This document shows, one piece after another, positions 913 to 55,777 of a DNA stretch of 64,000 nucleotides (position 1 is its first letter; the number at the start of each line of letters is the position of its first letter). Origin of the DNA: Deltaproteobacteria bacterium (GTDB lineage Bacteria; Desulfobacterota; Desulfobacteria; Desulfobacterales; Desulfosarcinaceae). The DNA lies in assembly GCA_021824175.1 (NCBI GenBank), contig JAKALP010000028.1, forward strand, positions 1 through 64,000, read 5' to 3'. Below the pieces are notes generated by a model. It did not search any database. It worked only from the letters and a program-made list of their open reading frames with translations, and had not been told where the DNA came from. The translations under genes were made by a program, and so were the position numbers.

Positions 913-924
913 GAAGTTTCCAGT

Positions 925-3476: not shown

Positions 3477-3541
3477 GGCGCTCTCCACATTTCTTTTTTT
3501 GAGATAGCTTGTAGGCCAAAAGACATATTTGCGATGATGTG

Positions 3542-6904: not shown

Positions 6905-6907
6905 TCT

Positions 6908-7195
6908 TTAGGTAAAAGAATTTATCTTTTCACGCAATTTGCCTGAACACTTAAATGTCACGACCTTGCGCTGGGATAGAATGAGATCGTCACCGGTCGC
7001 GGGATTTCGGCCACGGCGTTCTCTTTTATTCTTCACGCAGAATTTCCCAAATCCGCTGATGAGAACATCTTCGCCGTCCTCCAAAGTCCTTTTGATGATT
7101 TCAATCAAGCCTTCAACCACTTCAGTGCTTTTGTTCTTGGGGAAAGGCAAGTCTTCATGAATGATATCAACTATTTGGGCTTTGGTCAGGGTCAT
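6908..7195 (-). CDS. ihfA: Integration host factor / HU-family DNA-binding protein
   Basis: A 95-residue nucleoid protein of the HU/IHF fold. Residues 1-45 form the helical dimerisation part (MTLTKAQIVDIIHEDLPFPK), 46-58 the signature strand (VLISGFGKFCVKNK), and the DNA-binding beta arm carries RRGRNPATGD with the Pro that intercalates in the minor groove. The pattern VLISGFGKFCVKNK...RRGRNP resembles IHF-alpha more than HU, so ihfA is my choice, but IHF and HU are hard to separate without alignment. AAAGGAG precedes the ATG. A promoter is visible at 7258-7286. IHF commonly assists sigma-54 promoters, of which one is present at pspA. Confidence 0.85.
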   Translation of the reverse strand: MTLTKAQIVDIIHEDLPFPKNKSTEVVEGLIEIIKRTLEDGEDVLISGFGKFCVKNKRERRGRNPATGDDLILSQRKVVTFKCSGKLREKINSFT

Positions 7196-7257
7196 GATCC
7201 GGCTGCTCCTTTATCATGAGAAATCGTGGTTCAACTAATATTGTAAGCAATTTCAAA

Positions 7258-7286
7258 TATCTAATCAGATAGCGGTTTTTTGTCAA
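7258..7286 (-). promoter_or_regulatory. Putative sigma-70 promoter of the IHF/HU gene
   Basis: On the minus strand a perfect -35 TTGACA (7281-7286) is followed after 17 bp by TAGATA (7258-7263). The start codon is at 7195, giving a 5' leader of about 55 bases. Confidence 0.5.
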
Positions 7287-7362
7287 GAAAATAAGTGCGT
7301 TATCATTTTAAAATTGGGTTGGGCCCAAATTCGAACTCACTACCCACCCGCAAATTGCATCT

Positions 7363-7398
7363 AAAAATAAAAAAGGGCTACGACCTGTCGCAACCCTT
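7363..7398 (-). terminator. Rho-independent terminator of tRNA-Pro
   Basis: Minus-strand hairpin with an 11-bp stem (7373-7383 with 7388-7398, two G-T pairs) and a four-base loop, followed by a T-rich run (7363-7372). It lies 13 bases after the tRNA 3' end. Confidence 0.85.
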
Positions 7399-7410
7399 TT
7401 TGATTTTCCT

Positions 7411-7487
7411 TGGTCGGGGCAGCTGGATTTGAACCAGCGACCCCAGCGTCCCGAACGCTGTGCTCTACCAGGCTGAGCCATGCCCCG
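7411..7487 (-). tRNA. tRNA-Pro (anticodon CGG)
   Basis: A complete cloverleaf of 77 bases including an encoded CCA (7411-7413). The acceptor stem is CGGGGCA/TGCCCCG with discriminator A. The D arm is GCTCAGCCTGGTAGAGC. The anticodon stem CAGCG/CGCTG encloses TTCGGGA, which gives CGG, and the T arm is GCTGGTTCAAATCCAGC. A terminator follows directly and a TTGACA promoter precedes it, so it appears to be its own unit between purA and the IHF/HU gene. Confidence 0.97.
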
Positions 7488-7499
7488 AATGAAGCGAGG

Positions 7500-7528
7500 T
7501 AAGTAGTTCAAGTTACCTTAAATGTCAA
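7500..7528 (-). promoter_or_regulatory. Putative promoter of tRNA-Pro
   Basis: TTGACA on the minus strand (7523-7528) with a 17-bp spacer to TACTTA (7500-7505), a poor -10 match. Its position would place the start about 6 bases before the tRNA 5' end, which suits a tRNA promoter. Confidence 0.4.
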
Positions 7529-7620
7529 TCAATTTTCCTAAGCCTCTTTCGTATTGCGGTCAGCGTTGATGGTCATTCAGCCCCATCCAATGCACCAGAG
7601 GACCTCATGGAAGCGGGCAA

Positions 7621-8919
<1,299 letters not shown>

Positions 8920-8956
8920 TCACTCCTTAACGATAGCTACATTCAGTTTAGAGGCC

Positions 8957-9448
8957 TCACCCACCATAACCACGTCGGGATGATTCTCTTTTGCCTTTAA
9001 AGAAACGTTGTATAAGCGCCCTGCACTCATCCGCGCAGACACCGGAAACGATCTCGACTCGATGGTTCAATCTGCGATCAAGGGCGAAATCATACAAAGA
9101 GCCCGCCGCTCCCCATTTGGGATCGTGGGCTCCAAAGACGAGTCGCGCCACTCTCGCATGGACAACTGCTCCCATGCACATAATGCAGGGCTCGATGGTA
9201 ACATATAAGGTAGTCGATAACAATCGATAGTTTTTCAGCTTCCGCGCGGCTTTTCGGAGAGCGGCCATCTCGGCGTGGGCCGATGGATCATTGTTGCCAA
9301 TGGTTTGATTGCGGCCTTTAGCCAAGATGCCATGTTCATGATCTACCAGAATAGCACCGACCGGCACCTCCCCCTCGGACTGCGCCTTATTGGCCTCATT
9401 TAAGGCCAGTCGCATGAAATGGCGATCGGTTTCTATGGCATCATCCAC
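8957..9448 (-). CDS. tadA: tRNA-specific adenosine deaminase TadA
   Basis: TadA deaminates A34 to inosine in tRNA-Arg(ACG). The zinc site is complete: SAHAEMAAL (His ligand and catalytic Glu) and IEPCIMCMGAVVHAR (two Cys ligands). The core begins at HFMRLALNEANKAQSEGEVPVGAI. The open frame extends to 9568, but that would run into the divergent tRNA-Arg gene. I therefore choose the GTG at 9448 (VDDAIETDRHFMRLAL), about 163 residues, close to the family length; the Met at about 9412 is an alternative. Its substrate tRNA-Arg(ACG) starts 92 bp away on the opposite strand, and purA follows. Confidence 0.93.
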   Translation of the reverse strand: MDDAIETDRHFMRLALNEANKAQSEGEVPVGAILVDHEHGILAKGRNQTIGNNDPSAHAEMAALRKAARKLKNYRLLSTTLYVTIEPCIMCMGAVVHARVARLVFGAHDPKWGAAGSLYDFALDRRLNHRVEIVSGVCADECRALIQRFFKGKRESSRRGYGG

Positions 9449-9540
9449 AAACAACCACCCATGATTTTCAATACAAAACAATCCATTGACAAGCGCGGAA
9501 CTATATCTTAAGAAGCACCCCTGTTCAATGGTTATCGCTC

Positions 9541-9617
9541 GCGCCCGTAGCTCAGCTGGATAGAGCACCGGACTACGAATCCGTAGGTCGCCTGTTCGAA
9601 TCAGGCCGGGCGCGCCA
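9541..9617 (+). tRNA. tRNA-Arg (anticodon ACG)
   Basis: 77 bases with encoded CCA. The acceptor GCGCCCG pairs with CGGGCGC and the discriminator is G. The D arm is GCTCAGCTGGATAGAGC. The anticodon loop CTACGAA gives ACG, whose A34 should be changed to inosine. The T arm is GCCTGTTCGAATCAGGC. The outermost anticodon-stem pair (C27-T43) is mismatched. A TTGACA at 9486-9491 may be its -35 element. Confidence 0.97.
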
Positions 9618-9629
9618 CGAAATTAAAAA

Positions 9630-9657
9630 GGGGTGCCTCACGGGCACCTCTTTTTTT
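9630..9657 (+). terminator. Rho-independent terminator of tRNA-Arg
   Basis: Stem GGGGTGCC/GGCACCTC (one G-T pair), five-base loop, then seven T (9651-9657). It starts 13 bases after the tRNA. Confidence 0.9.
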
Positions 9658-9834
9658 CGGCGAATTCAAGCTTAAGGCTTACGCTTATTGACCTTCCCGG
9701 CGAAAAAAAATAGCCCTTTAGCCCTCCTCTTCACAACCCTCATCAGCCGAGGAGAGGATCGGTGTGAGAGGGGCAAAATTACAGCCTAATTTGCAAAATT
9801 GATTAGTTGAGTCTACGACGAGTGGGTTGGCGAT

Positions 9835-12579
9835 TTATGCCTGCCCCTGGGAATCCGCACCCAAGGCGCGACGAATCGCTTCCCCGAGCTTTTGCAAAGT
9901 GACTGGCTTTTTGAGGTACTCCCGAATTCCCATGGCTTTGGCTTTCTCCTCATTGATCAGCTCGCTGAATCCCGTGCAAAGAATTATGGGGATACCCGGG
10001 TGCGCTTTCATTACATGTTCCGAAAGTTCCTGTCCGGTCATGCCGGGCATGGTTTGATCGGTAATGACCAGATCAAATCCATTGGGATTGGCTTTAAAGC
10101 ATGCCAATGCTTCCGTGGCTTCGGAAAAGGGGTGGACCTCGTAGCCCATCCGCGCCAACATCTGTTTGGAAACAGCAACTAGGGATGCTTCGTCATCGAC
10201 AAGCAGTATACGCCCCTGACCTCTGGGTAGCGAAATGGGTTGTGTTTTGGTCAGGGCAAACTGTTCGGCGCCAAAGGAACACTTAGGGATATAGACGGTG
10301 AATGTTGTTCCTCTTCCGACCACGGAACTCACATCGATGGTGCCCTCATAACTTTGAATAATGCCATGGACAGTGGCCAGCCCGAGGCCCGTACCAAGCC
10401 CTTTTTCTTTAGTAGTGAAGTAGGGTTCAAATATACGACCAATATCCTCCTGAGGTATCCCATGGCCGGTGTCACTGACCGTCAACTTCATATATTCTTT
10501 TTCTTTTAAAGCCGGGAAATGGAGTCGCGAATCAGCATTGATGCGGATTTCCTGCAATCCGATGCTCAGGATGCCGCCTTTCTCCCGCATGGCATGGGCC
10601 GAATTGGTACAAAGATTAAGAAGAACTTGATGGATTTGGGTCGGGTCTGCCAGAACAGTCCCCTTGGTCGGTTTGATATCTTTTTGGATCTCGATGGTGG
10701 TTGGAATAGATGCCCGGATCATCTTAATGGCCTCTTCCACCAGTGGCTCAAGCTTAAGGGGTTTCTTTTGTTGCTCGCTTTGACGGCTGAAGGCCAATAT
10801 TTGCTGGACTAGATCTTTGGCGCGTTGAGCGGATGCGAAGACATGGTTCAACCATTCCCTGATTTCACCCTCCTGAGTCACTTCCAGCAGCAGCAATTCC
10901 GTGTATCCTAATATTGCGCCCAAAATATTATTGAAGTCATGAGCGATGCCTCCAGCCAGAGTACCAATGGCCTCCATCTTCTGGGATTGATTGAGTTTGG
11001 TTTCAAGCATCTTGATTTGGGTAACGTCTCGAGCATTCAGCACGGAGCCAATAATTTTATCATCCCTGTCCTTATATGGATAGAACGCGACATCCATATA
11101 TCTTCTTCCGATTTCCGGGAAGTCAAACCATGTTTGAAAATTGACTTCTTCGTCGTTGCAACATTTTGTAAAATTGGGCTTAATAGCAACATTGAAAAAA
11201 GCTGCCCCCGCTATTTCCGCCATGGATTTGCCAATAATTTCAGGTTTGTTTTTCTTGAATAAAATCGTATGGGCATCATTAACGGCCGTATAAACGCAAT
11301 CTGTGTTCACGATAGCCATGAGATCTTTTGAAGCGGCCACAATGCTTTCATATTTACGTAATTGTTCTTCCGTTTTCACGCGCAGTTCAATCTCATGAGT
11401 CATCGCTTCATTCTTTTTACCGAGATCTTTGATCTTCTCCCGTATAGAGTCTCTCATTTTGATAAAACTTTGAGACAAAGCGGCTATTTCATCATCTCCT
11501 TGAACGCGGATTTCTTTATCCAAATCGCCTGAAGCGATAATCGCCGTGCTGCGTGTCAAATGTTGGATTGGCTTTGTGATTCTAACCCCGTATAGAGTGA
11601 CCAGTACACTGACTCCAATGACCAGTAAAGATAAAAGCCCCATTATACTTCCAAAGGATCGGACGTTGCTCACCACGGTCTCTTTCATCTTTGTGGTCTT
11701 GGTGGTGATGGTTTGTCGGACGGCCTCAACACGTGCAATGACCTTATCCTGGCTGGCATATAGATCCACGAGATTGGCCCGGAGCACGCGCATAGCGCCA
11801 TGAAGCGCCGCAATCTTCTCTTTCAAAGCTGCTACGAGCCCCATGGCTTCCTTACCAGATGGCGCCAGGTGTTCACCGGCAGTTGAAACAGCCGAAAGCG
11901 AGGACTCCATATCGGAGACCATTTCAAGCAAGCGCTCTTCGAAGCCGGTGATGGCCACCTCCCTTGTAAAATGGGCTCGTTCAGATTCATTGAGCGTGAT
12001 TTTGATTTTCAACAAAAGGAGTCTTAAGTCGGGTATTAAAGCACTGATCTGATTGATCGAGTTGATCTCATACTCTTTCCCATTGAGTTTGAGCTGTATT
12101 AATTCATTGGTCACAATGTCTTCTATGCGGTCCAACAGGTTTGTTAATTGATTTTCAATTGCGGTGATGCCTTGAATCTTTTCTTCAACTTGCGCGCATT
12201 GGCCCAGTAATGCTTTAAAAGCTGAAGCAAAGATTTTGAGGTCTTCACTAAAGCTTTCGTTGGGCTGAGCTGAGACGACAAAGTTATTCAGGTCGGTCAA
12301 CAAGCGCTCGGATTGCGCCTGCAAGTCCATTCCCTCAATGGCAAAACGTTTCACGAAAAAATGGATATCGGAAGACAATTGCTGAAGCTTGGCGCCTAAT
12401 TCTTGATTGGTGATAGCTTGGGAAACGCCATGATCCACGAGAGTAATCACCATATTCTTCATCTGGCTGGTCAATGCAAAGTTAACCAGTATCAGACAGC
12501 CAAAGGCCATGATGATGATTCCATTCAAAATAGTTAATTTGGATACAATGCTCTTTGCTTTGAGTATTGATTTGATCAT
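9835..12579 (-). CDS. Hybrid sensor histidine kinase (TM-HAMP-PAS-HisKA-HATPase-REC)
   Basis: A 914-residue membrane kinase. TM1 is near residues 14-36 and TM2 near 310-332, enclosing a long helical periplasmic sensor. A HAMP domain (ITKPIQHLTRSTAIIASGDL), a PAS domain and the phosphoacceptor box GGIAHDFNNILGAILGYTEL follow. The ATPase boxes are NLCTNSAHAM, DTGHGIP and GLGTGLGLATVHGI. A C-terminal receiver (about 790-905) has its Asp in DLVITDQTMPGM and its Lys in YLKKPVTL. The ATG at 12579 is preceded by AAAGGAAC; a GTG six codons earlier is less likely. The binding-protein gene just upstream (93 bp) may supply its ligand-sensing partner. No DNA-binding output is encoded nearby. Confidence 0.93.
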   Translation of the reverse strand: MIKSILKAKSIVSKLTILNGIIIMAFGCLILVNFALTSQMKNMVITLVDHGVSQAITNQELGAKLQQLSSDIHFFVKRFAIEGMDLQAQSERLLTDLNNFVVSAQPNESFSEDLKIFASAFKALLGQCAQVEEKIQGITAIENQLTNLLDRIEDIVTNELIQLKLNGKEYEINSINQISALIPDLRLLLLKIKITLNESERAHFTREVAITGFEERLLEMVSDMESSLSAVSTAGEHLAPSGKEAMGLVAALKEKIAALHGAMRVLRANLVDLYASQDKVIARVEAVRQTITTKTTKMKETVVSNVRSFGSIMGLLSLLVIGVSVLVTLYGVRITKPIQHLTRSTAIIASGDLDKEIRVQGDDEIAALSQSFIKMRDSIREKIKDLGKKNEAMTHEIELRVKTEEQLRKYESIVAASKDLMAIVNTDCVYTAVNDAHTILFKKNKPEIIGKSMAEIAGAAFFNVAIKPNFTKCCNDEEVNFQTWFDFPEIGRRYMDVAFYPYKDRDDKIIGSVLNARDVTQIKMLETKLNQSQKMEAIGTLAGGIAHDFNNILGAILGYTELLLLEVTQEGEIREWLNHVFASAQRAKDLVQQILAFSRQSEQQKKPLKLEPLVEEAIKMIRASIPTTIEIQKDIKPTKGTVLADPTQIHQVLLNLCTNSAHAMREKGGILSIGLQEIRINADSRLHFPALKEKEYMKLTVSDTGHGIPQEDIGRIFEPYFTTKEKGLGTGLGLATVHGIIQSYEGTIDVSSVVGRGTTFTVYIPKCSFGAEQFALTKTQPISLPRGQGRILLVDDEASLVAVSKQMLARMGYEVHPFSEATEALACFKANPNGFDLVITDQTMPGMTGQELSEHVMKAHPGIPIILCTGFSELINEEKAKAMGIREYLKKPVTLQKLGEAIRRALGADSQGQA

Positions 12580-18741: not shown

Positions 18742-20343
18742 TCATGCTTGACTTTTCTTTACTTCTACACTGGGTTTTTGCTTCTCGTCGGTCGCTGGTC
18801 CACCGGTTGATTCAGCCGCCCCCATGCGTCCGAGATACTTTGGAAGATCCAGCCCCGCCATTTCGGCGATGTCATGCAGCGGGGGCAGGCTTTTAACAAA
18901 ACCGGAAAGAAAGTTAGCGGTTGTAGTACCGTTCTTGCCGTCGCCACCCGAGCCCGAGTCCCAAACCGTAATTTTGTCGATCTTGAGGTTCTTGACCGCC
19001 TCCACTTGCATGGTAACCAACTGCTCGATTTTTTCGATCATCAACAACGTGGCGGCGGCCTTGGCGTCTCCCGCGCAGCTCTTTACCAATTCGGCGTAGC
19101 CGGCGGCCTTGCTTTCAAGCACTTGGCGCAAACCGCGCGCTTCGGCTTCATATTTGAGCAGAGTGGCATCAGCCGTGCCTTTTGCTTCGCGCCGGATCTT
19201 TTCGGCTTCGGCTTCGGCCGCGATTTCGATTTCTTTCTTTTGAATTTCTTTTCTGACGATATCTTCGGCATTCAATCGTTCCAGCTCCGAACGGTATTGG
19301 GCCTTCTGAATCTCCACCATGGCATCGCGCTTGGCCACTTCACCGCGGCGTTTGGCATCGGCTTTCTTGATATCCAATTCCGCTTCGGAATTGGCGATAT
19401 CTGCCTTGGCCGTATTCTCACCGGAAATAGCCTGGGCTTCTTGCTGCTGCACATAAATGCGCTTGTCCGCTTCGGCGCGTTTGCGGCCCTTTTCTGCTTC
19501 GGCCAGCTTTTCTGCGACTTTGATCTCTTTTTCTTTATCCGCATCCGCCTCGCCGATAGTTGCCATGGTCTCCTGTTGCTGGACAAATACCCGGCGGTCG
19601 GCCTCGGCTTTCTTCTTGCCTTTCTCGGCCTCGGCCACATTCTCGGCCACGCGGACATCTTTTTCTTTGGTAGCCTGGGCCTGGCCGATGGCCCCATGTT
19701 TTTCCTGTTCCGCCACGTCAATCTTGGCTTGGTTGATTGCTTCGGCAGCCGCTTTTTTGCCGATGCTTTCAATGTAGTCCGATGAATCGGTGATATCCGT
19801 GATGTTTACGTTGATCAGATAAAGGCCGATCTTGTTAAGCTCCGGGGCGACATTCTTGCGAATCTCAACCAAAAAGCTTTCCCGGTCCTGGTTGATCTGC
19901 TCGATGGTCAAGGAAGCAACGGTTAGTCTTAGTTGTCCAAAGATAATTTCTTTGGCCATCTCCTCGATTTCTTGCTGAGGAAGATTAAGCAACCTTTCAG
20001 CCGCGTTGTTCATGACGCCGGGTTCGGTGCTGATACCCACCGTAAATGTGCTGGGTACATTGATGCGGATATTCTGCTGAGAGAGCGCATTTTGCAGCGG
20101 AATGCTGATGGTCATGGGCGTCAGATCCATATAAGAGTAATCTTGGATCAAAGGCCAGATCAAGGCGCCGCCGCCATGAATACAATTGGCGGATTGACCG
20201 CCGCTGACTTTGCCGTAGACGACCAGAATCTTATCCGATGGGCATCGCTTGTATCTCGATGCGAGAAAGACCAGCGTCATGACGATTAGAATCACAAAAG
20301 CGATAATCACAAACACCCAGTACCCAAGACCAAGAGCTTGCAT
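18742..20343 (-). CDS. Flotillin-like SPFH protein
   Basis: A 533-residue membrane protein with one N-terminal TM helix (VFVIIAFVILIVMTLVFLAS), an SPFH/band-7 domain (about 38-200) and a very long Ala/Glu/Lys-rich coiled coil (about 200-430) before a GGDGKNG linker and a C-terminal helix. Flotillins scaffold membrane microdomains. The coiled coil contains a 44-residue tandem duplication (19408-19671). The ATG at 20343 has AAGGGATG upstream; an ATG six codons earlier lacks a site. It is third in the run pspA, NfeD-like, flotillin, with 47 bp between it and the NfeD-like gene. NfeD-like proteins are typical partners of flotillins. Confidence 0.9.
   Translation of the reverse strand: MQALGLGYWVFVIIAFVILIVMTLVFLASRYKRCPSDKILVVYGKVSGGQSANCIHGGGALIWPLIQDYSYMDLTPMTISIPLQNALSQQNIRINVPSTFTVGISTEPGVMNNAAERLLNLPQQEIEEMAKEIIFGQLRLTVASLTIEQINQDRESFLVEIRKNVAPELNKIGLYLINVNITDITDSSDYIESIGKKAAAEAINQAKIDVAEQEKHGAIGQAQATKEKDVRVAENVAEAEKGKKKAEADRRVFVQQQETMATIGEADADKEKEIKVAEKLAEAEKGRKRAEADKRIYVQQQEAQAISGENTAKADIANSEAELDIKKADAKRRGEVAKRDAMVEIQKAQYRSELERLNAEDIVRKEIQKKEIEIAAEAEAEKIRREAKGTADATLLKYEAEARGLRQVLESKAAGYAELVKSCAGDAKAAATLLMIEKIEQLVTMQVEAVKNLKIDKITVWDSGSGGDGKNGTTTANFLSGFVKSLPPLHDIAEMAGLDLPKYLGRMGAAESTGGPATDEKQKPSVEVKKSQA
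19408..19671 (-). repeat. 44-residue tandem duplication inside flotillin coiled coil
   Basis: Two adjacent 132-bp units encode nearly the same peptide. The first contains VAENVAEAEKGKKKAEADRR and the second VAEKLAEAEKGRKRAEADKR, each followed by VQQQE. The duplication keeps heptad phase poorly but lengthens the rod by one unit. Confidence 0.85.
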
Positions 20344-20390
20344 AAAGTCATCCCTTCCCATGTAATTTTAAGAAAGAATTCGACGGACGA

Positions 20391-20972
20391 TTAAATTGGT
20401 TCCACCACTAGTACATTGCCATCCACCCACACCACCCGGACCGGCACACCGGTGGCGATTTTCCGATTATCATGGGCCATGGCATCATATTCCCGCAGAC
20501 TGTTGTGGACACTAATCAGCACTCGGCCGCGCCCGTTTTCCGGGATCGTCAAGTAGACTTCACCTTTGGCACCGACCGTACTATCGATATGGATGGTTCC
20601 GCTCGATTGCAGCTTGATCACCAGCTTGAACATCTTGGCGATAATCCAGACCGAAGCCATACCCGCTGCCACCGCGCCTAACATGGAGATAACGATACCG
20701 GTTCGGCTCTGACTATAAAGCGCCATACCGACAAGACCGAACATCAGTAAAAAGGAAGTGATTCCTTGCAGCGAAAGCAGTTTAAAGCCTACGTCCGAGT
20801 CCGCATGGTGGCCGTCGAAATCGTGACCGGCACCGCTGAAGTCGCCATGCGCGCCGTGATCAATACCAATCAGCATCATGACAAACCGGACCAGCACAAA
20901 AAGTCCGCCTACAACGGCACAAATCAGGAAGAAGATTTCCACCCCGTTGAATTTGCTAAAAAATTCAGCCAT
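20391..20972 (-). CDS. NfeD-like membrane protein (YqiJ/YuaF type)
   Basis: A 193-residue protein with three or four TM helices (about 10-35, 65-85, 88-115) separated by a His/Asp-rich loop (DHGAHGDF and GHDFDGHHADSD). It ends in a small beta-rich OB-fold domain (about 125-193: VGAKGEVYLTIPENGRGRVL, then VPVRVVWVDGNVLVVEP). This is the short NfeD form that pairs with flotillins. It has no ClpP-like protease domain. The start at 20972 follows GGAAGGG. The His-rich loop might bind metal, which is speculation. Confidence 0.85.
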   Translation of the reverse strand: MAEFFSKFNGVEIFFLICAVVGGLFVLVRFVMMLIGIDHGAHGDFSGAGHDFDGHHADSDVGFKLLSLQGITSFLLMFGLVGMALYSQSRTGIVISMLGAVAAGMASVWIIAKMFKLVIKLQSSGTIHIDSTVGAKGEVYLTIPENGRGRVLISVHNSLREYDAMAHDNRKIATGVPVRVVWVDGNVLVVEPI

Positions 20973-21206
20973 GGCATACCCTTCCGCGCGACGATGATGG
21001 CCTGTTTTTGATTTCGATATATCGGAATGTGTGGTTGTTCAACTTGAATGCCAGCAACATATTTTAAAAGCAAATGGGTGTCAATTGGCAATGTTCTCCC
21101 CAAGCGGGCGGCGACCAAACGCCAACCAAAGACTTATCTTCGGCACACGATTAATTCCCTGACATCGCATTTATCGGTCTCGCGATTCGTGTCGATCCAA
21201 CGGTTC

Positions 21207-21890
21207 TTATACTTCCCCTGGCTTGATTTCGCTTTTCTCCAAAGAAGATTTCAAAGCTAACAATTCTTGTTCGAGTTCATCATCCATTCGCAAGCTTTCA
21301 AACTCATTCTCCAGCTTTGATTTGCGTGGCAGAGCGGCAAAATCCGCCTCAACCTCCATGCGCTCAATCCGATTCTCAAGTTCCTCGAATCGCATAATGG
21401 CATCATTGCTTTCAATGCGCCGGATCTCCTCTTGGCTTTTCAGCTTAGCGCTGGCCCGTGCCTGGCGTTGCACCAGCATCCGTTGTTTGTTACGGGCCGC
21501 ATCGAGTTTGTCCTGCAGCTGCTGGATATCCTCCTGATACTGTGCGACTAGGGCCTCGTGCTCATCATACTCCTTGCGCAACGCGGCGCAGCGATCAAGG
21601 GCATGCCGTTTTTCCAACAAAGCTTCGCGGGCCAATCCGTCCCTCTCCTTTTTTACGGCCAGTGAAGCTCTTTCGTGCCACTGCTTGGTCAGCGCTTCGG
21701 CTTGAAGTAACTGGCGTTGAACTTGTTTGCAATTGGCCATCACGCCGGCGCAGGAAGCTTTGAGTTCTACTAGGGTATCCTCCATTTCACGGATGATGAG
21801 CTTAATCAACTTCTCCGGGTTCTCCGCTTTGTCCAACATGGCGTTGATGTTGGAACTGACAATATCTCTGAAACGCGTAAAAATTCCCAT
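21207..21890 (-). CDS. pspA: Phage shock protein A
   Basis: A 227-residue, almost wholly helical PspA/IM30 protein. It begins MGIFTRFRDIVSSNINAMLD, the amphipathic membrane-binding helix, followed by AENPEKLIKLIIREMEDTL and long coiled coils rich in Glu/Lys/Gln. PspA guards inner-membrane integrity and, in enterobacteria, also inhibits PspF. GGAGGG precedes the ATG. A sigma-54 promoter lies 40-55 bp upstream, and pspF is divergent. Downstream are the NfeD-like and flotillin genes (gap 234 bp), so this Psp module lacks pspB/pspC in the window. Confidence 0.95.
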   Translation of the reverse strand: MGIFTRFRDIVSSNINAMLDKAENPEKLIKLIIREMEDTLVELKASCAGVMANCKQVQRQLLQAEALTKQWHERASLAVKKERDGLAREALLEKRHALDRCAALRKEYDEHEALVAQYQEDIQQLQDKLDAARNKQRMLVQRQARASAKLKSQEEIRRIESNDAIMRFEELENRIERMEVEADFAALPRKSKLENEFESLRMDDELEQELLALKSSLEKSEIKPGEV

Positions 21891-21929
21891 TGTTCATGCC
21901 CTCCATTTGAGTTTTTCAACATTTAGAAG

Positions 21930-21945
21930 AGCATTTAAGATGCCA
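21930..21945 (-). promoter_or_regulatory. Sigma-54 promoter of pspA
   Basis: Read on the minus strand: TGGCAT, five bases, ATGCT. The invariant GG and GC are exactly 12 bp apart as required for -24/-12 elements. It lies 40 bp upstream of pspA and faces it, with the gene for the PspF enhancer-binding protein on the other side. Confidence 0.82.
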
Positions 21946-22077
21946 CTTCACCCTTACCATACGAATCACCATATATTTCAATGAATTGTATAAATATTTA
22001 AATTTGACGCACCACTTAAATAAATGGTACTATAAACCAAAAATTTAAAATCATGCCAAATATTGGCGGAATAAACC

Positions 22078-23121
22078 ATGATACCCGACACCACTACCCC
22101 GTTTGGGGGGCAATCTTTCCAATTACCCGAAGCACTGGGACAATCAGAACGGTTCCTGGAATTTCAACAACGTCTTTCGCGAGTGGCACCGGTGGACCGG
22201 CCGGTTCTGATCCTGGGAGAGCGTGGTACCGGCAAGGAGTTGGCGGCGGCAAGAGTCCATTTTCTTTCCAAACGCTGGCAAGGACCGCTGGTAACGCTCA
22301 ATTGCGCCGCTCTTAATCCCGCACTGATCGAAACGGAGTTATTTGGACATGAAAAGGGGGCCTTTACTGGTGCGGATTCTCGCCGCAGAGGCCGCTTTGA
22401 AGCGGCTGACCGCGGTACCCTGTTTTTAGATGAAATCGGCGCCATTCCCTTGGAAGCTCAGGCCAAGATCCTGCGCGTGGTTGAATACGGAACCTTTGAA
22501 AGGGTCGGCAGCACTGAATGCATTGAAGTCGATGTCCGCATTATCGCCGCCACCAACGAGGATTTGCCCGCATTGGCAGCCGAAGGCCGTTTTAAGCAGG
22601 ACCTGCTCGACCGACTTTCCTTTGAAGTGTTATTCCTGCCTCCCTTGCGGGAGCGGCGCGAGGATATCATGTTGCTGGCCAACCATTTTGCGGGCTGTAT
22701 GGCCCTGGAAATCGGCCGCTCCACTGCTCCGCGCTTCAGCGCTGAAGCCAAGGCGGCTTTAGAATCCTATTCTTGGCCCGGCAATATCCGCGAACTGAAA
22801 AACCTGGTTGAACGATCTGTCTATCGGACCGACCATGAAATTATTCATGAAATTGACTTTCACCCGTTTGGCGAACAGCCATTACGATTGACGCTGCCCA
22901 GCTCTAACGGGATCGCACGCCCAACCGGCCAATCTTCTTCCACGGCCGACCTGCTGGAACTTCCCATGGAAGAAGCCATCGACGAATTAAAGATCCGACA
23001 TTTGAAAAATGCCCTAACCGCCTGCCGCTTCAATCAGCAAAAAGCAGCGCGCCAGCTTGGCTTGTCCTACGACCAATTCCGCGGTTTATATCGAAAATTT
23101 AAGAGCAAACTATCCGCGTAG
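22078..23121 (+). CDS. pspF: PspF-like sigma-54 activator
   Basis: A 347-residue enhancer-binding protein without a receiver domain. The AAA+ domain spans about 15-245: Walker A GERGTGKELAA, the sigma-54 contact loop GAFTGAD, Walker B GTLFLDEIG and the R-fingers in FKQDLLDRLSF and LPPLRERREDI. It ends in a Fis-type helix-turn-helix (about 300-345: NQQKAARQLGLSYDQFRGLY). The lack of a receiver and the FRxLYRKF-type end match PspF, which is restrained by PspA binding. It is divergent from pspA; the 187-bp gap holds the sigma-54 promoter. A weak ribosome site (GGCGGAAT) suggests low expression. Confidence 0.92.
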   Translation: MIPDTTTPFGGQSFQLPEALGQSERFLEFQQRLSRVAPVDRPVLILGERGTGKELAAARVHFLSKRWQGPLVTLNCAALNPALIETELFGHEKGAFTGADSRRRGRFEAADRGTLFLDEIGAIPLEAQAKILRVVEYGTFERVGSTECIEVDVRIIAATNEDLPALAAEGRFKQDLLDRLSFEVLFLPPLRERREDIMLLANHFAGCMALEIGRSTAPRFSAEAKAALESYSWPGNIRELKNLVERSVYRTDHEIIHEIDFHPFGEQPLRLTLPSSNGIARPTGQSSSTADLLELPMEEAIDELKIRHLKNALTACRFNQQKAARQLGLSYDQFRGLYRKFKSKLSA

Positions 23122-23175
23122 AATCCATTTGGCCCATTTTCCGATAAATCAGGCCACGCTGCCATCGCGCATTTT

Positions 23176-23229
23176 TTCAAGACCTTTTCATACAGCTTTC
23201 ATTTTCGATTCATCATGGGATGTCATAAC
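23176..23229 (+). promoter_or_regulatory. CreB-type operator and promoter of the VIT-exosortase-creBC operon
   Basis: Direct repeats with an exact 11-bp period: TTCAA (23176), TTCAT (23187), TTCAT (23198), TTCAT (23209). The E. coli CreB site is TTCAC-N6-TTCAC, the same architecture. Fifteen bases after the start of the last repeat is CATAAC (23224-23229), a -10-like hexamer. The ATG is 62 bp after the start of that hexamer. The same arrangement occurs upstream of creD. Confidence 0.8.
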
Positions 23230-23285
23230 GGCACCAGATCAATGCTGTTGGTTATTTTTGACAACCCTTAAAAAGAGAGGCCCCC

Positions 23286-25283
23286 ATGATGCGTAATGAC
23301 TTGCGTGCTGTCTTTTGCTTAACCGTCTGCTTCTTCATTGTTCTTTGTCTGCCCCAGGCGTCCCAGGCAGAAGGCAAAGATAAAACTTTGTCGCCCTATT
23401 TCTTCATCGAAAATGGTGAAGAAGGCGTAGATCAGCTGCCGCTGAAATCCACCCAGGTGGAGGTCAAAATCAATGCAAGCATCGCCCAGATCAAAGTGAT
23501 GCAGCAGTATGCCAATGAAGGGACGCGGCCGATCCATGCCCGCTATGTCTTTCCTGCCTCGACGCGCGCGGCCGTGCACGGCATGCGCATGCAAGTAGGA
23601 GAGCAGGTGGTGGTGGCCAAAATTCAAGAACGCCAGGCTGCCAAGCAAACTTTTGAAACCGCCAAAAAGGAGGGCAAAAGCGCCTCTTTGCTGACCGAGG
23701 AACGGGCTAATGTCTTCACCATGCAAGTGGCCAATATACTACCGGGAGATACGATCCGTATCGAACTGGACTACACCGAACTGCTGGTGCCCACCGACGG
23801 CATCTATGAATTTGTCTACCCCACGGTGGTGGGGCCGCGTTATTCCACCGTGCCCGAAGCTGGCGCTGGAGATCAGCAACAATGGTTGAAAAATCCCTAT
23901 CTAAAAGAAGGAATGCCGCCAGTCACTACATTTGATATCGATGTTCAAATTGCCGCCGGCCTCAATATTTCAGATATGGCGTGCCCTTCCCACAAAACCG
24001 ATATCACCTGGCAAGATGGAGCACAGGCCACGGTGCAACTGGCAGCCACGGAAACCGATGGCGGCAACCGGGATTATATTCTTCGCTATCGCCTGGCCGA
24101 CGAAGAGATTCAATCCGGTTTGATGCTCTTTAAAGGAGAAAAGGAGAATTTCTTCCTGATGATGCTTCAGCCGCCGAAACGAATCTCCCCGCAAGCAATT
24201 GTGGCCCGGGAATATATCTTCGTGGTGGATGTCTCCGGTTCCATGAATGGATTCCCGCTGGATGTGTCCAAAGCTTTGCTGCGGGATTTAATCGGCAGCC
24301 TGCGGCCGGTGGACCGCTTCAATGTGGTGCTCTTCGCGGGCAGTGCCCGGGTGTTGGCGCCCCAATCCTTTCCGGCCGATGACAACCACCTGGCCCAGGC
24401 CATTGCTCTGATCGACCGGCAGCAGGGTGGCGGCGGTACCGAACTGCGCAATGCCCTGGCCACGGCGCTGCGATTACCGCGCGCCAACGGCATGGCCCGC
24501 AGCATGGTGGTGGTGACCGATGGATATATCGATGTGGAACAAGAGGTTTTTGCTCTGATCGACCAAAACCTGAGCAACACCAATTTCTTTGCCTTTGGTA
24601 TCGGCAATAGCGTGAACCGTCTGCTCATCGAGGGTCTGGCTCATGTAGGTCAGGGCGAGCCCTTTGTGGTGACCAACCCGGCCGAGGCGCCCGCCGTGGC
24701 CGAACGTTTCAAAAAATACATCGAAGCGCCTGTTCTCAGCGGGATCACGATTCAATATGAGGACTGGGATGTCTACGACCTTGAACCGCGGCAGGTGCCT
24801 GATCTATTTGCCCAGCGGCCCATCATGGTTTGCGGTAAGTGGCGTGGCCAGGCCAACGGCCGCATCCACCTGAGCGGCGTCAGCGGCCAAGGCAGCTATA
24901 GTCAGGTATTAGATCTGGCCCATCTCACACCGCTGGAAAGCAATAGCGCCCTACCCTATTTGTGGGCTCGCACCCGGCTGTCGCGCTTAACCGATTTCAA
25001 TCCAGACGGCGAGGCTGAAGCCACCCGTGCTGAAGTGGTCTCCCTTGGATTGACCTATCATTTGCTGACGCCCCATACCGCCTTTGTGGCTGTGGACGAA
25101 ACCGTGCGCAATCCCGACGGCGCGGGCGATGATGTCAACCATCCTTCACCGTTGCCCAAAGGGGTGTCCAATTTAGCGGTGGGTGGCGGGCATAATGTTC
25201 CTGAGCCTGGCTTGGTGTTCATGGGAGCTCTGCTCTGCCTGGGGGCACTGGCCTCATGGGTGCGGCGGCGGTCGAATCGGTGA
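23286..25283 (+). CDS. VIT/VWA protein with PEP-CTERM-like sorting signal
   Basis: A 665-residue exported protein. Signal peptide about 9-29, then a VIT domain (about 45-175: VMQQYANEGTRPIHARYVFP, IQERQAAKQTFETAKKEGKS). A VWA domain follows (about 310-480) with a full MIDAS start DVSGSMNG, and then a beta-rich region. It ends with VPEPG, a hydrophobic helix (LVFMGALLCLGALASW) and VRRRSNR: an exosortase-type tripartite signal. The exosortase is the next gene. By family the VIT-VWA part binds metal-dependent ligands, perhaps matrix or surface partners. ATG at 23286 with GAGAGG upstream. First gene of the Cre-controlled unit. Confidence 0.9.
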   Translation: MMRNDLRAVFCLTVCFFIVLCLPQASQAEGKDKTLSPYFFIENGEEGVDQLPLKSTQVEVKINASIAQIKVMQQYANEGTRPIHARYVFPASTRAAVHGMRMQVGEQVVVAKIQERQAAKQTFETAKKEGKSASLLTEERANVFTMQVANILPGDTIRIELDYTELLVPTDGIYEFVYPTVVGPRYSTVPEAGAGDQQQWLKNPYLKEGMPPVTTFDIDVQIAAGLNISDMACPSHKTDITWQDGAQATVQLAATETDGGNRDYILRYRLADEEIQSGLMLFKGEKENFFLMMLQPPKRISPQAIVAREYIFVVDVSGSMNGFPLDVSKALLRDLIGSLRPVDRFNVVLFAGSARVLAPQSFPADDNHLAQAIALIDRQQGGGGTELRNALATALRLPRANGMARSMVVVTDGYIDVEQEVFALIDQNLSNTNFFAFGIGNSVNRLLIEGLAHVGQGEPFVVTNPAEAPAVAERFKKYIEAPVLSGITIQYEDWDVYDLEPRQVPDLFAQRPIMVCGKWRGQANGRIHLSGVSGQGSYSQVLDLAHLTPLESNSALPYLWARTRLSRLTDFNPDGEAEATRAEVVSLGLTYHLLTPHTAFVAVDETVRNPDGAGDDVNHPSPLPKGVSNLAVGGGHNVPEPGLVFMGALLCLGALASWVRRRSNR

Positions 25284-25289
25284 GGGGTT

Positions 25290-25313
25290 GGTTGATTGGT
25301 TTATTGGTTGATT
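25290..25313 (+). repeat. 8-bp tandem repeat between target and exosortase genes
   Basis: Three adjacent units GGTTGATT, GGTTTATT, GGTTGATT directly after the VIT gene stop codon. The surrounding 25284-25360 is unusually rich in GGTT. It may be a slippage-prone spacer. Confidence 0.6.
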
Positions 25314-25414
25314 GGGTGTCCGGTTCATCGGTTAATGGTTCACTGGGGGAGGGATTGGTGGTGGGACGGCTATCAAAATGTGGATGCAGGGATCTCTTCA
25401 ATAAGGACGGCTTC

Positions 25415-26197
25415 GTGAAAAATCCGCGGACCGTCACTCCCACGCAGGCGCGAGTCCAGAAAAGCATACAACTAGTGTTTTATCTACTGGCGGCCTGTAT
25501 GATGTTCGCTTTAAAGCAGCATTACAGCACAGCTTCCGCTGACCAGCTCCTATGGATGCTGCGGCCCGTGGCCTGGCTGGTAGAGGGTTGGGATGGATCA
25601 GCCTACAGCTGGCAACCTGGTGTGGGCTTCGTGCGTTCCGACTACTTCATCACCATTGCCCCGGCCTGCGCCGGAATCAACTTCTTTATCATGGCCTATG
25701 GATTGAGCATCTTTGCTTTTATGCGCCATCTGAGCACCCTTGGGCGCCAAGCTGTCTGGCTCTTCGGTGCATTGGCCGGCGCGTATGGACTGAGCGTGGT
25801 AGTGAATGCCCTGCGTATCATTTTGACCATCGTCCTTTACGAGCACCAGGCTGGTTGGGGCTGGCTGACGCCCGAGCGGCTGCACTGTGCTACCGGCATT
25901 GGGGTCTATTTCACTGGTTTGGGCTTGTATTATGCGGTGCTGCACCGCATAATATTGAACAGCAGTCGCGGCACCGGAAGCCTCAACCACCTCTTGCTGC
26001 CATGGGCATGGTATATTGCCGGTGCCGTGGCGGTGCCGGTGGTTCACCAGCTCTATCGCAGCCATGAATGGCCGGCAATGGAATATTGCCTGATGGTGAT
26101 CGGGATCAGCGCCCTGCTGTGGGCAATCTTTGCTGCCGGTACGAAGATAATAAGAAAGGAATTCCATGCGCCCCAGAATTCTAATTGTGGAAGATGA
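25415..26197 (+). CDS. Exosortase (membrane transpeptidase-like)
   Basis: An integral membrane protein with about seven hydrophobic helices. From the GTG at 25415 (after AAGGACGG) it has 260 residues; an ATG at 25256 keeps frame but overlaps the VIT gene and adds a repeat-derived, non-conserved leader. The proposed catalytic triad of exosortases is visible: Cys85 in APACAGINFF, Arg134 in VVNALRII, His157 in ERLHCATGIGVYF. It is expected to cleave the C-terminal signal of the adjacent VIT protein, the only PEP-CTERM-like protein I see in the window. The subfamily (K, N or other) cannot be set by eye. creB starts inside its last 32 bases. Confidence 0.88.
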   Translation: MKNPRTVTPTQARVQKSIQLVFYLLAACMMFALKQHYSTASADQLLWMLRPVAWLVEGWDGSAYSWQPGVGFVRSDYFITIAPACAGINFFIMAYGLSIFAFMRHLSTLGRQAVWLFGALAGAYGLSVVVNALRIILTIVLYEHQAGWGWLTPERLHCATGIGVYFTGLGLYYAVLHRIILNSSRGTGSLNHLLLPWAWYIAGAVAVPVVHQLYRSHEWPAMEYCLMVIGISALLWAIFAAGTKIIRKEFHAPQNSNCGR

Positions 26198-26849
26198 GCC
26201 GGCCATTGCCGATACAATACAGTATGCTCTGGAAACCGATGGCTGTGAACCGGTGGTAGTGAATGCCGGCGCGCCGGCCTTGGAGCGCATTGCCCGCGAG
26301 AGAATCGACTTAATCGTCCTCGATGTAGGTTTGCCGGATATCAACGGGTTTGAAGTATGCAAGCGTATCCGTCAAAGTACTTCGGTGCCCATCATCTTCC
26401 TCACGGCCCGGGGTGAAGAAATCGACCGGGTGGTGGGCCTGGAGATCGGCGGCGATGATTATGTGGTCAAACCCTTTAGTCCGAGGGAACTCGCCGCGCG
26501 GGTTAAGGCCGTGCTGCGCCGCGGCCAAAATGGCGCCCAACCGTCATGCGCCAAAACTCAGGCATTTGAAGTCAACTCCGACAAACGCCAAATCCGCTAT
26601 TGCAATGTACCGCTGGATTTGAGCCGCTATGAATATGACATTTTATCCACTTTTATCCGCCACCCCGGCCATGTCTTCACCCGCGAGCAGATCATGCAAA
26701 TGGTCTGGGAATCGCCCGAAGCCAGCATGGACCGCACCGTCGATGCCCATATCAAAAACATTCGCGCCAAACTCAAAGCCATCAAAGCTGATCCTGACCC
26801 CATCGTCACCCACCGCGGCACGGGCTACGCGCTGAGGGAAAATTTATGA
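26166..26849 (+). CDS. creB: OmpR-family response regulator, CreB-like
   Basis: A 227-residue regulator. Receiver about 1-120 with phosphoacceptor Asp in LIVLDVGLPDING, acidic pocket VEDEP, the Thr of FLTARG and Lys in VVKPFSPREL. A winged helix for DNA binding lies about 130-225 (LSRYEYDILSTFIRHPGHVF, RTVDAHIKNIRAKLK, HRGTGYAL). Pairing with a CreC-like kinase and presence of CreB-type repeats upstream of both this unit and creD support CreB. It overlaps the exosortase by 32 bp and creC by 4 bp (ATGA), so the four genes are one unit. OmpR-type regulators bind direct repeats with an 11-bp period, as seen here. Confidence 0.88.
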   Translation: MRPRILIVEDEPAIADTIQYALETDGCEPVVVNAGAPALERIARERIDLIVLDVGLPDINGFEVCKRIRQSTSVPIIFLTARGEEIDRVVGLEIGGDDYVVKPFSPRELAARVKAVLRRGQNGAQPSCAKTQAFEVNSDKRQIRYCNVPLDLSRYEYDILSTFIRHPGHVFTREQIMQMVWESPEASMDRTVDAHIKNIRAKLKAIKADPDPIVTHRGTGYALRENL

Positions 26850-28273
26850 AACTGGGACTGCGCATATTCTTCTGCTCTCTCGTCATCTTTTTGCTTTGTT
26901 TTGCCTACCCTATCAGTTGGGTGATGAATAATGCCCGCATGCGATATCTGGAAGGCGTGGAAGACCCTTTGGCCGACCATGCCAACATTTTGGCCGAGAT
27001 AGTGGGAGGCCAGATGGCCGCGGGCACTTTTCACATAGAAGAACTCCAAAGCATTTTTGAACGAGTGTATGCGCGGCAACTGGACAGCCAAATCTACAGC
27101 TTGAATAAACAGCGGGTGGATCTTCAAGTTTACTTGACGGATACCAAAGGCACGATCCTCTTTCATTCCAAGCACCCTGATCAAACCGGTCAAAACTACA
27201 CCCATTGGCGGGATGTGGCCCTGGCTCTCGAAGGTCGGTACGGGGCGCGCACTTCTTTGGATAACCCGAAGGACCCCACCAGCTCCGTACTGTATGTGGC
27301 CGCGCCGGTCATGGTCCACGGCCAAATGGCCGGTGTGCTCACCGTGGCCAAACCCACCACCAATATCAATCACTTTCTGAAAGCGGCCAAACCCAAATTC
27401 CTGGCGGTTACGGCCACGGCCGCGGTTGCAGCCGTGGCCCTGAGCTACCTGGCGGCCCTGTGGATTGCCAGCCCCATCCGACGCCTGACCGCCTACGCCG
27501 ATGCCATCCGCGCCGGTCAACGCCCGGTTTTCCCAAAACTGGATCGCACTGAAATTGGTGGACTGGGCCGGGCTCTGCAACGCATGCAAGAGCGCCTGGA
27601 GGGCAAAGCCTATGTGGAGCAGTACGTTCAGAAGTTGACCCATGAAGTCAAAAGCCCCTTATCGGCCATTCGAGGGGCAGCTGAACTCTTGGAAGAGGAT
27701 ATGCCCGCCGCCAACAAACAACGCTTTCTGGCCAATATCCGCGCGGAAGCCGATCGCATTCAGGTAATCGTGGATTGCATGTTAGAACTGGCCAGCCTCG
27801 AATTCAAGAAGCAATTGCCCACCCGCAAGCCAGTCAATTTACAGGCCTTGAGCAAAACTGTGTTGGAGAGCAAAGCGCCCATGCTGATCGCCAAAAAAAT
27901 CGCCGTAGCCACGGACATCGATTCCCAGATGGAAGTATATGGTGATCCCTTTTTACTGCACCAGGCCCTGGCCAACTTGGTACAGAACGCCATTGACTTC
28001 TGCGAGCGCGAAGGGGTGATCACACTATCTGCCAGAAATGAGGATCATCACATCCTGTTTAAGGTGGAAGATAATGGTGCCAGCATACCCGATTATGCCA
28101 TTGAAAAGATCTTCGATAAATTCTACTCCCTGCAACGACCCGACAGCGGTAAAAAATCCACCGGATTGGGCCTCAATCTGGTTCGGGAGGTGGCCCAACT
28201 CCATCAAGGCACAATCCACCTGGAGAACATCGCGCCCCAGGGCGTGAGGGCCACATTCATCCTGCCGCGATAA
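26846..28273 (+). CDS. creC: Sensor histidine kinase, CreC-like
   Basis: A 475-residue membrane kinase. TM1 about 5-25, a CreC-type periplasmic sensor (about 30-170: VYLTDTKGTILFHSK, then HWRDVALALEGRYGARTS and SVLYVAAPVMVHG), TM2 about 185-208 and a HAMP domain (SPIRRLTAYADAIRAGQRP). The phosphoacceptor box is LTHEVKSPLSAIRGAAEL and the ATPase domain has NLVQNAIDF, VEDNGASIP and STGLGLNLVREV. The sensor sequence is strongly like E. coli CreC. It is the last gene of the operon and ends in a 323-bp gap. Confidence 0.9.
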   Translation: MKLGLRIFFCSLVIFLLCFAYPISWVMNNARMRYLEGVEDPLADHANILAEIVGGQMAAGTFHIEELQSIFERVYARQLDSQIYSLNKQRVDLQVYLTDTKGTILFHSKHPDQTGQNYTHWRDVALALEGRYGARTSLDNPKDPTSSVLYVAAPVMVHGQMAGVLTVAKPTTNINHFLKAAKPKFLAVTATAAVAAVALSYLAALWIASPIRRLTAYADAIRAGQRPVFPKLDRTEIGGLGRALQRMQERLEGKAYVEQYVQKLTHEVKSPLSAIRGAAELLEEDMPAANKQRFLANIRAEADRIQVIVDCMLELASLEFKKQLPTRKPVNLQALSKTVLESKAPMLIAKKIAVATDIDSQMEVYGDPFLLHQALANLVQNAIDFCEREGVITLSARNEDHHILFKVEDNGASIPDYAIEKIFDKFYSLQRPDSGKKSTGLGLNLVREVAQLHQGTIHLENIAPQGVRATFILPR

Positions 28274-54300: not shown

Positions 54301-54343
54301 TTCATTTCGATTTCATCCCTCGTTCATCGCCGTTACATATTCT
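54301..54343 (+). promoter_or_regulatory. CreB-type operator and promoter of creD
   Basis: TTCAT at 54301, 54312 and 54323 and TACAT at 54334: four direct repeats with exact 11-bp period. A -10-like TATTCT (54338-54343) begins 15 bp after the start of the third repeat. The creD ATG is 60 bp after the start of that hexamer. All these distances match those upstream of the VIT-exosortase-creBC operon. Confidence 0.82.
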
Positions 54344-54397: not shown

Positions 54398-55777
54398 ATG
54401 GATTTCAATGCAACGCTTCGCGAAACACGACACACCCTTGGAAAATCAGCCACCTTGAAACTCTTCGTTATCTCAGGGCTTGCCCTCGCCCTATTGATCC
54501 CCATCACCATGGTTAAAGCGCTGATCGATGAACGGGAGCAGCGCAAGGAAGAAGTCATCGAAGAAATCAGCGGCAAGTGGGGACGACCGCAAACCATCAC
54601 CGGCCCGGTGATCTCCATTCCCTACAAAAAATATTTCACCGATCAGGATGGCCGAAAACATCATACCACTGAATATTTTCATCTCATGCCGGATTCGCTG
54701 GACATCAAAAGCACGATGACTCCCGAGATCCGGTACCGGGGCATGTATGAAGCAGTTTTATATGCTTCAGAATTGCTCCTGTTATGCTCATTCAAAGCGC
54801 CGGAGTTGCAGGACCTGGAGATCTCTCCGGAAGATGTGGTCTGGTCCGGAGCGATGATCGGCGTAGGCATCAGTGATATGGGCGGCATCAAAGAACGCAT
54901 CGTAGCGCTCCACGAAAGCGAAAGTATTGAAATAAATCCCGGTCATACGATTTCTACACTGATCCATTCCGGCGTCAGCGCTCATATTCGCATGGACGGC
55001 GTGGGAACCCATCACTTTTCAATCCTGCTCAAACTCAACGGCAGTCAGCAAATTCAATTTGCTCCAGTGGGAAAAAGCACGACGGTCATGGTCAAATCCA
55101 CCTGGCAGGCTCCCAGCTTTGTTGGCGATTTTTTACCCGTGGCACGCCAAATCGGCAAAGAGGGATTTGAAGCCAGATGGAATGTTCTTTATCTCAACCG
55201 CAATTACCCTCAACAATGGAAGGGCGATGCGTACAACCTTGACCAGTCGCTCTTCGGCGTCAAACTCTACAAACAGGTGGATGTCTATCAAAAATCAATG
55301 CGCACGGCCAAGTATGCCCTGCTCTTCATAGCTTTTACCTTTTATGCCTTCTTTTTATCGGAGATATTGAGCCAGCTCAGTGTTCATCCGGTGCAATATC
55401 TCTTGATCGGCTTTGCCATGATTATCTTCTATACGCTTTTGCTTTCATTTTCCGAACAGATTGGCTTCAATAGGGCTTATATGATTTCTTCCACAGCCGT
55501 AATTATTCTCATCATGTCCTACACGCGAAGTATTTCCCGGCGCAAAAGCGTCACGCTGATGGTCGGCTGCACCTTGGGGCTTCTCTACGGGTATTGCTTT
55601 ATCCTGTTGCAGCTTGAAGATTATGCCCTACTTATGGGCAGCATCGGCTTGTTCGCCGCGCTGGCTGTCATCATGTATTTAACCCGCAAAGTGAACTGGT
55701 ACGCTCTATGTCAAAGGATAAAACCGGAAGCACCCCAAGCGAATGAAACTATTGACAGCCGTTCGGTCCCGGCCTAG
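54398..55777 (+). CDS. creD: Inner-membrane protein CreD
   Basis: A 459-residue membrane protein. TM1 about 22-42, a large periplasmic domain (about 45-300: WGRPQTITGPVISIPYKK, LFGVKLYKQVDVYQKSMRT), then six or so TM helices (about 305-440: YALLFIAFTFYAFFLSEIL, VHPVQYLLIGFAMIIFYTLL). The phrases GPVISIPY and VHPVQYLLIGFAMIIFYTLL are the CreD signature. CreD belongs to the CreBC regulon in enterobacteria and affects envelope integrity and beta-lactam response. Here it is 26 kb from creBC but has the same operator. Confidence 0.93.
   Translation: MDFNATLRETRHTLGKSATLKLFVISGLALALLIPITMVKALIDEREQRKEEVIEEISGKWGRPQTITGPVISIPYKKYFTDQDGRKHHTTEYFHLMPDSLDIKSTMTPEIRYRGMYEAVLYASELLLLCSFKAPELQDLEISPEDVVWSGAMIGVGISDMGGIKERIVALHESESIEINPGHTISTLIHSGVSAHIRMDGVGTHHFSILLKLNGSQQIQFAPVGKSTTVMVKSTWQAPSFVGDFLPVARQIGKEGFEARWNVLYLNRNYPQQWKGDAYNLDQSLFGVKLYKQVDVYQKSMRTAKYALLFIAFTFYAFFLSEILSQLSVHPVQYLLIGFAMIIFYTLLLSFSEQIGFNRAYMISSTAVIILIMSYTRSISRRKSVTLMVGCTLGLLYGYCFILLQLEDYALLMGSIGLFAALAVIMYLTRKVNWYALCQRIKPEAPQANETIDSRSVPA

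Follow-up and report, generated by a model that had tools for sequence, protein, structure and literature searches.

Four-repeat TTCAY arrays before a VIT-exosortase K-creBC operon and before creD suggest control of both by CreB

We analyzed a 64,000-nucleotide stretch of a Desulfosarcinaceae genome (hereafter, the window), in which genes for a VIT/VWA protein, exosortase K (XrtK), CreB, and CreC stand behind four TTCAY-like repeats set at 11-bp steps and in which a second array of the same kind precedes creD. Our main reading, to which we give a probability of roughly 0.8, is that phosphorylated CreB binds the four repeats as a substitute for a −35 element and activates both VIT-xrtK-creB-creC and creD; we infer binding and activation alike from the sequence. 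The original prediction, that CreB controls its own operon and with it an exosortase and its substrate, is supported in that the array follows CreBC across genomes and also precedes creD. The genome holds what marks a cre-tag promoter, namely 11-bp TTCAC-like repeats, CreB together with CreC, and the same site before creD. The repeats and the regulator are of known kinds; what is new is the proposed exosortase target, together with an autoregulated layout of four repeats.

The gene calls behind the predicted VIT-exosortase-creB-creC unit hold (Table 1): the exosortase, the response regulator, and the kinase exceed the cut-offs of TIGR04287, NF008296, and NF008312, and the first protein carries PF08487 and a VWA domain. 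Because the start of creB falls within the last part of xrtK and creC in turn overlaps creB, the four genes are likely read as a single transcript. The VIT/VWA protein is likely a dedicated exosortase substrate; as in an exosortase K system, it is a neighboring protein with a PEP-like motif, a membrane helix, and a basic end. Across the window and 25 related loci, the C termini of the VIT proteins carry PEP in 25 of 26 cases and AEP in one (L047). The protein scored 404 bits against TIGR03788, below the cut-off of 551.65, and gave no match to TIGR02595 (PEP-CTERM) at an E value of 0.5; the eight TIGR02595 matches in the genome lie elsewhere and exclude it. A Cys, an Arg, and a His of XrtK (C66, R115, and H138 of the aligned stretch), which we take to be the catalytic residues, were invariant in 21 aligned stretches. 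The upstream neighbor is pspF, which ends at 23121, 54 bp short of the array, and the region beside the operon (18742 to 23121) is an envelope-stress neighborhood comprising flotillin/SPFH, NfeD-like, PspA, and pspF genes.

Table 1. Genes and predicted regulatory sites, in positions of the window
Feature	Position	Strand	Basis and remarks
Four-repeat operator (predicted CreB site)	23176..23213	+	TTCAA 23176, TTCAT 23187, 23198, 23209; 11-bp steps; direct sequence reading
−10-like CATAAC	23224..23229	+	Starts 15 bp past the start of the last repeat
VIT + VWA protein	23286..25283	+	PF08487 114 bits + VWA; tail ...NVPEPG-(hydrophobic)-RRR
Exosortase K (XrtK)	25256..26197	+	TIGR04287 110 bits, cut-off 55; start codon uncertain, 25256 or 25337
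CreB response regulator	26166..26849	+	NF008296 324.7 bits, cut-off 273; overlaps xrtK end
CreC sensor kinase	26846..28273	+	NF008312 564.8 bits, cut-off 356
Second operator (predicted)	54301..54338	+	TTCAT/TTCAT/TTCAT/TACAT at 54301, 54312, 54323, 54334; upstream of creD
CreD inner-membrane protein	54398..55777	+	PF06123 506.8 bits

Direct reading placed the three TTCAT repeats, the TTCAA before them, and the −10-like CATAAC after them exactly where the original prediction had them. Its comparison with the E. coli CreB site stood in part: the TTCAC core and the 11-bp step match, but what had been described as one changed base is a natural alternation of C and T at the fifth position, TTCAC and TTCAT being mixed within one array in relatives. 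A sigma-70 promoter with a −35 element of its own was rejected, as no −35/−10 pair was found in 23050 to 23330, a weak negative given a chance expectation of only 0.5.

We next compared the locus with those of relatives. A phylum sample of 395 genomes gave 5 with XrtK over the cut-off and an order sample of 194 gave 23, both figures including the window genome, and 26 XrtK loci besides the window made up the set. VIT, xrtK, creB, and creC were consecutive in 20 of these 26; creBC lay off the piece or was absent from it in three (L052, L060, and L063), was left only as remnants in L053, and was inverted in L058, and L061 had no VIT. Promoters were scored for the window and 25 loci (n = 26), L046 being cut by the contig end and L061 being represented by the region before xrtK. 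The repeats recur at orthologous loci: 25 of the 26 promoters carry the four-repeat array at no more than 2 mismatches of 20 (0 in 14 promoters, 1 in 10, and 2 in 1), and in the exception, L051, a run of N interrupts the sequence immediately before VIT. Simulated promoters (n = 5,200) had a mean of 7.3 mismatches and none fewer than 3, and at alternative spacings of 9, 10, 12, and 13 bp none of the 26 promoters scored fewer than 4 mismatches. When 25 promoters were aligned on the last repeat, a TATAAT-like element appeared from +15 (A at +16 in 24 of 25 and T at +20 in 19 of 25). The CATAAC of the window occupies the same offset, so that the −10 position first proposed for this promoter is conserved in the alignment.

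Several relatives show variants of the locus. In L058 (G414), where creBC is on the opposite strand, two opposed arrays lie upstream of VIT. L117, from a genome of the window's genus (G530), is an operon remnant in which the array is followed by the start of VIT fused to a middle part of CreC; profile searches of that genome matched neither XrtK nor CreC. L138 (G476:C116) carries a second VIT copy, short at 244 aa, together with a four-repeat array of its own.

The array before creD was not part of the original prediction and is central to the finding. Its exact triple (54301 to 54327) lies about 70 bp before the creD open reading frame and 31 kb from the array of the VIT-xrtK-creB-creC operon, and creD itself lies 26 kb beyond creC. 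The gene creD is the classic CreB target. According to an excerpt of PMC4689548, the TTCAC-N6-TTCAC tag before it is critical for the binding of CreB/BlrA. In the E. coli creA-creD stretch, we found a single exact pair on the coding strand, immediately ahead of creD. Among the 194 genomes of the order sample, 19 have creD, 10 of them with CreC and 9 without. Where CreC is present, at least three perfect repeats of four stand before a creD in 8 of the 10 genomes; where it is absent, they do so in 0 of the 9. The two exceptions with CreC are G507, with a weak array (2 mismatches of 15), and G476, with no array (5 mismatches). G525 and G563 each hold a second creD copy that also lacks an array. 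Three creD genomes without CreC (G389, G036, and G491, with 1, 3, and 2 mismatches of 15, respectively) have a more distant CreB-like neighbor, and their creD-side repeats include TGCAC forms.

We propose that CreC phosphorylates CreB on some signal and that two CreB dimers, arranged head to tail, would then occupy the four TTCAY half-sites along a single face of the helix. The last of these sites falls at about the −35 position, so CreB could recruit RNA polymerase to the −10 element at 23224, with a predicted transcription start near 23235. VIT-xrtK-creB-creC would thus be driven as one autoregulated, self-amplifying operon, the second site would switch on creD, and XrtK would process the VPEP-CTERM tail of the VIT/VWA protein. 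PhoB acts as an activator that replaces the −35 contact. Because the array ends at about the −35 position and the offset to the −10 element is fixed, CreB most likely acts here as such an activator rather than as a repressor. The sign could be the opposite, because CreBC lowers creD expression in Stenotrophomonas maltophilia (PMC4689548, excerpt). That CreB binds but represses the operon, creD, or both is nevertheless unlikely: the position of the array end and its conserved spacing to the −10 element are as expected of an activator replacing the −35 contact, the missing −35/−10 pair argues weakly in the same direction, and in E. coli, Aeromonas, and P. aeruginosa the regulation of creD is positive, as stated in the same excerpt.

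We also evaluated how the array and CreBC are associated across genomes. CreC exceeded its cut-off in 29 of the 194 order-sample genomes. At least one exact triple array was present anywhere in the genome in 23 of these 29, compared with 24 of the 165 genomes without CreC (Fisher test, P value = 7.7 × 10−12), a value that, like the others given here, overstates independence because the genomes share ancestry; the backward pattern was found in 3 of 29 and 13 of 165, respectively (P value = 0.44). XrtK was present in 21 of the 29 CreC genomes compared with 2 of the 165 others. The motif by itself does not single out CreB: exact triples occur in 24 of the 165 genomes without CreC, against 13 of 165 for the backward pattern, and some of them stand before Rieske or RND-efflux genes.

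For a tally by locus, a single XrtK protein as the query gave no match against the genome contigs, and an alignment of 21 XrtK stretches gave 44 loci. These include Desulfosarcina widdelii (L278), an Olavius algarvensis endosymbiont (L273), and Desulfatitalea sp. BRH_c12 (L291), as well as Acidobacteria (L289 and L296), Thermoanaerobaculia (L294), Anaeromyxobacter (L288), and Myxococcales (L298). With duplicates, L300, and L301 removed, there were 49 distinct XrtK loci (the window; L258 to L299; L054, L061, L063, L064, L069, and L070), of which six had an unreadable upstream region (L262, L263, L266, L284, L289, and L297), leaving 43. An array was called at no more than 3 mismatches of 20, a limit chosen after seeing the null (10 of 5,200 simulations reach 3), and L271 was scored as positive for an array about 430 bp upstream, beyond the 300-bp scan. 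Loci with CreBC include partial cases, namely L272 (creB cut by the contig end), L299 (creB, no creC being detected at this locus), L275 and L063 (CreC encoded on a different contig), and L265 of G468 (remnants of both only). Counted in this way, the array was present in 37 of the 38 XrtK loci with CreBC, whole or in part, and in 1 of the 5 without (n = 43, P value = 2.0 × 10−4); with L265 recounted as lacking CreBC, the figures were 36 of 37 versus 2 of 6 (P value = 5.8 × 10−4). Four VIT-XrtK loci from genomes without CreC over the cut-off (Anaeromyxobacter L288, Acidobacteriota L296, Myxococcales L298, and L277) lack the array and are a natural control. L261 (G411) has the array in a genome that is 79% complete and shows no CreC over the cut-off, and L283 has CreBC with a degenerate array (5 mismatches of 20). 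Outside the Desulfobacterota and unassigned 'Proteobacteria' records, the array is seen at one locus, Thermoanaerobaculia L294 (2 mismatches).

PhoB-family regulators use 11-bp direct repeats, and the array could on that account be a Pho box, with the operon under PhoB or some other OmpR/PhoB-family regulator instead of CreB; TTCAC arrays before Rieske genes, beside another kinase and in genomes without CreC, speak for this too. We hold it to be very unlikely, since the array tracks the presence of CreBC, is absent from the four control loci, and also stands before creD. Moreover, a TTCAY triple within 3 mismatches of 15 was found at 0 of 30 pstS-like loci from 14 genomes (13 of the 30 over the family cut-off, one of those in the window genome), where the scan covered 500 bp of sequence ahead of the family match, possibly not the true promoter; PhoB as the binder was rejected on this result. 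Arg201 of PhoB hydrogen-bonds a guanine (PMC3973317, excerpt), and the equivalent residue is Asn in the window CreB and in 20 of the 21 relatives; E. coli CreB has Thr there. This replacement fits a preference for TTCAY instead of TGTCA and is not proof of it.

Furthermore, we counted the repeats in the window and in the whole genome (6,074,036 bp). TTCAY-N6-TTCAY occurs five times in the window against 0.86 expected, a number reached by 0 of 100 shuffles; two of the five pairs belong to the array at 23176, two to the one at 54301 to 54327, and one (36593) lies within a coding open reading frame. Exact three-repeat arrays are found at three sites in the genome and the backward pattern at none, where base composition predicts 0.07 and a first-order Markov model 0.19, each parameterized from the window. 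Four repeats at no more than 3 mismatches gave nine hits, some of them shifted registers of one site, against one for the backward control; the best, with 1 mismatch each, are the sites before VIT-xrtK-creB-creC and before creD. The third exact triple, of TTCAT repeats (L003 1501 to 1527; G000:C55:173851-173877, minus strand), lies about 120 bp before murA. Of 12 genomes compared, only that of the window has an exact array before murA, neither congener having one, and murA was rejected as a third member of the regulon; we leave this array as chance or lineage specific, and its lack of conservation shows that single arrays can be chance. That the repeats at 23176 to 23213 arose by chance or from local T-rich sequence of low complexity, as their T-rich flanks and the murA case might suggest, has a negligible probability in view of the genome-wide excess over expectation and control, the simulated promoters, the failure of the other spacings, and the conservation in relatives.

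Arrays of this kind also stand before other genes. In G436, which has CreC and no XrtK over the cut-off, an exact TTCAY triple precedes an XrtO gene (405 bits) followed by one for a VIT-domain PEP-CTERM protein (TIGR02921, 840 bits; PF08487, 34.8 bits), the whole arrangement lying at L302 7017 to 11542. XrtO occurs in only one more of the 194 genomes, G474, which is without CreC and shows no array over the 12 kb read. With one case each way, the placement of XrtO under a CreB array is suggestive only. We examined 46 further triple-array regions, several of which prove to be simple tandem repeats or fall within reading frames; the recurrent targets were creD, HlyD-type genes, and Rieske genes. 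TTCAC arrays precede HlyD-type genes in L109, L111, L113, L120, and L125, from genomes G525, G563, G447, and G436, which have CreC, and G499, which lacks it, and an RND pump gene follows the HlyD-type gene in L109 (G525). It is possible that CreB controls efflux through these sites, and other regulators may do so equally well. In L131 (G504) and L136 (G415), from genomes without CreC, four TTCAC repeats precede a gene for a Rieske protein, and a histidine kinase gene lies immediately upstream; these arrays are probably the site of another PhoB-family regulator. In L303 (G569, with CreC; 259 to 10504), a four-repeat array lies upstream of MoxR-type ATPase, DUF58, and BatA/VWA genes.

Among known systems, the proteobacterial dedicated sortase system encodes its VIT/VWA target together with a transpeptidase and a two-component system. 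The operon described here shares that plan with the TIGR03788 target, TIGR03785 kinase, and TIGR03787 regulator, but exosortase K replaces the sortase and CreB/CreC replace the regulator pair; the sortase-system regulator and kinase models scored 144.1 and 149 bits here, below their cut-offs of 335.7 and 612.2, which sets the operon outside that system. The PEP-CTERM/EpsH system likewise places an exosortase and a PEP-CTERM-type substrate under a two-component system, PrsK/PrsR, of which PrsR is reportedly linked to sigma-54; here the exosortase is of the XrtK class, a VIT substrate adjoins it, and CreB stands in place of the sigma-54 regulator. XrtO with its TIGR02921 VIT-domain PEP-CTERM protein also pairs an exosortase with a VIT-domain substrate, in G436 with an array as well, but it belongs to another exosortase class, and in G436 creBC is outside the 13 kb around it. 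In comparison with the CreBC (BlrAB) regulon of E. coli, Aeromonas, and Pseudomonas as excerpted from PMC4689548, we found in common CreB and CreC over their cut-offs, the core, the 11-bp step, and the creD target; the present system differs in having four repeats instead of two, C or T as the fifth base, and creBC downstream of the VIT-exosortase pair, within its own target operon, with creD elsewhere.

In the open-licence part of PubMed Central, we found no literature linking an exosortase with CreBC, XrtK, or 'VIT domain' and no papers on exosortase K, in keeping with the original remark that no description of exosortase control by a Cre system was known. The same excerpt of PMC4689548 notes that the CreBC signal differs between species and that the job of CreD is little studied. 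We suggest, as a doubtful extension, that CreBC may serve envelope surveillance around VIT-domain surface proteins, with XrtK and XrtO under CreB arrays, the VIT/VWA protein reporting to CreC in a feedback loop, and CreD as an inner-membrane partner. Because the array is kept in relatives and also stands before creD, the known stress regulator CreB probably controls the sorting of protein to the cell surface here. The cre-tag is thereby extended to the Desulfobacterota in a four-repeat form, and the conserved −10 element lets the regulon be predicted. Moreover, given the link between CreBC and the exosortase, whatever condition or gene switches creD should have the same effect on the exosortase and its adjoining substrate.
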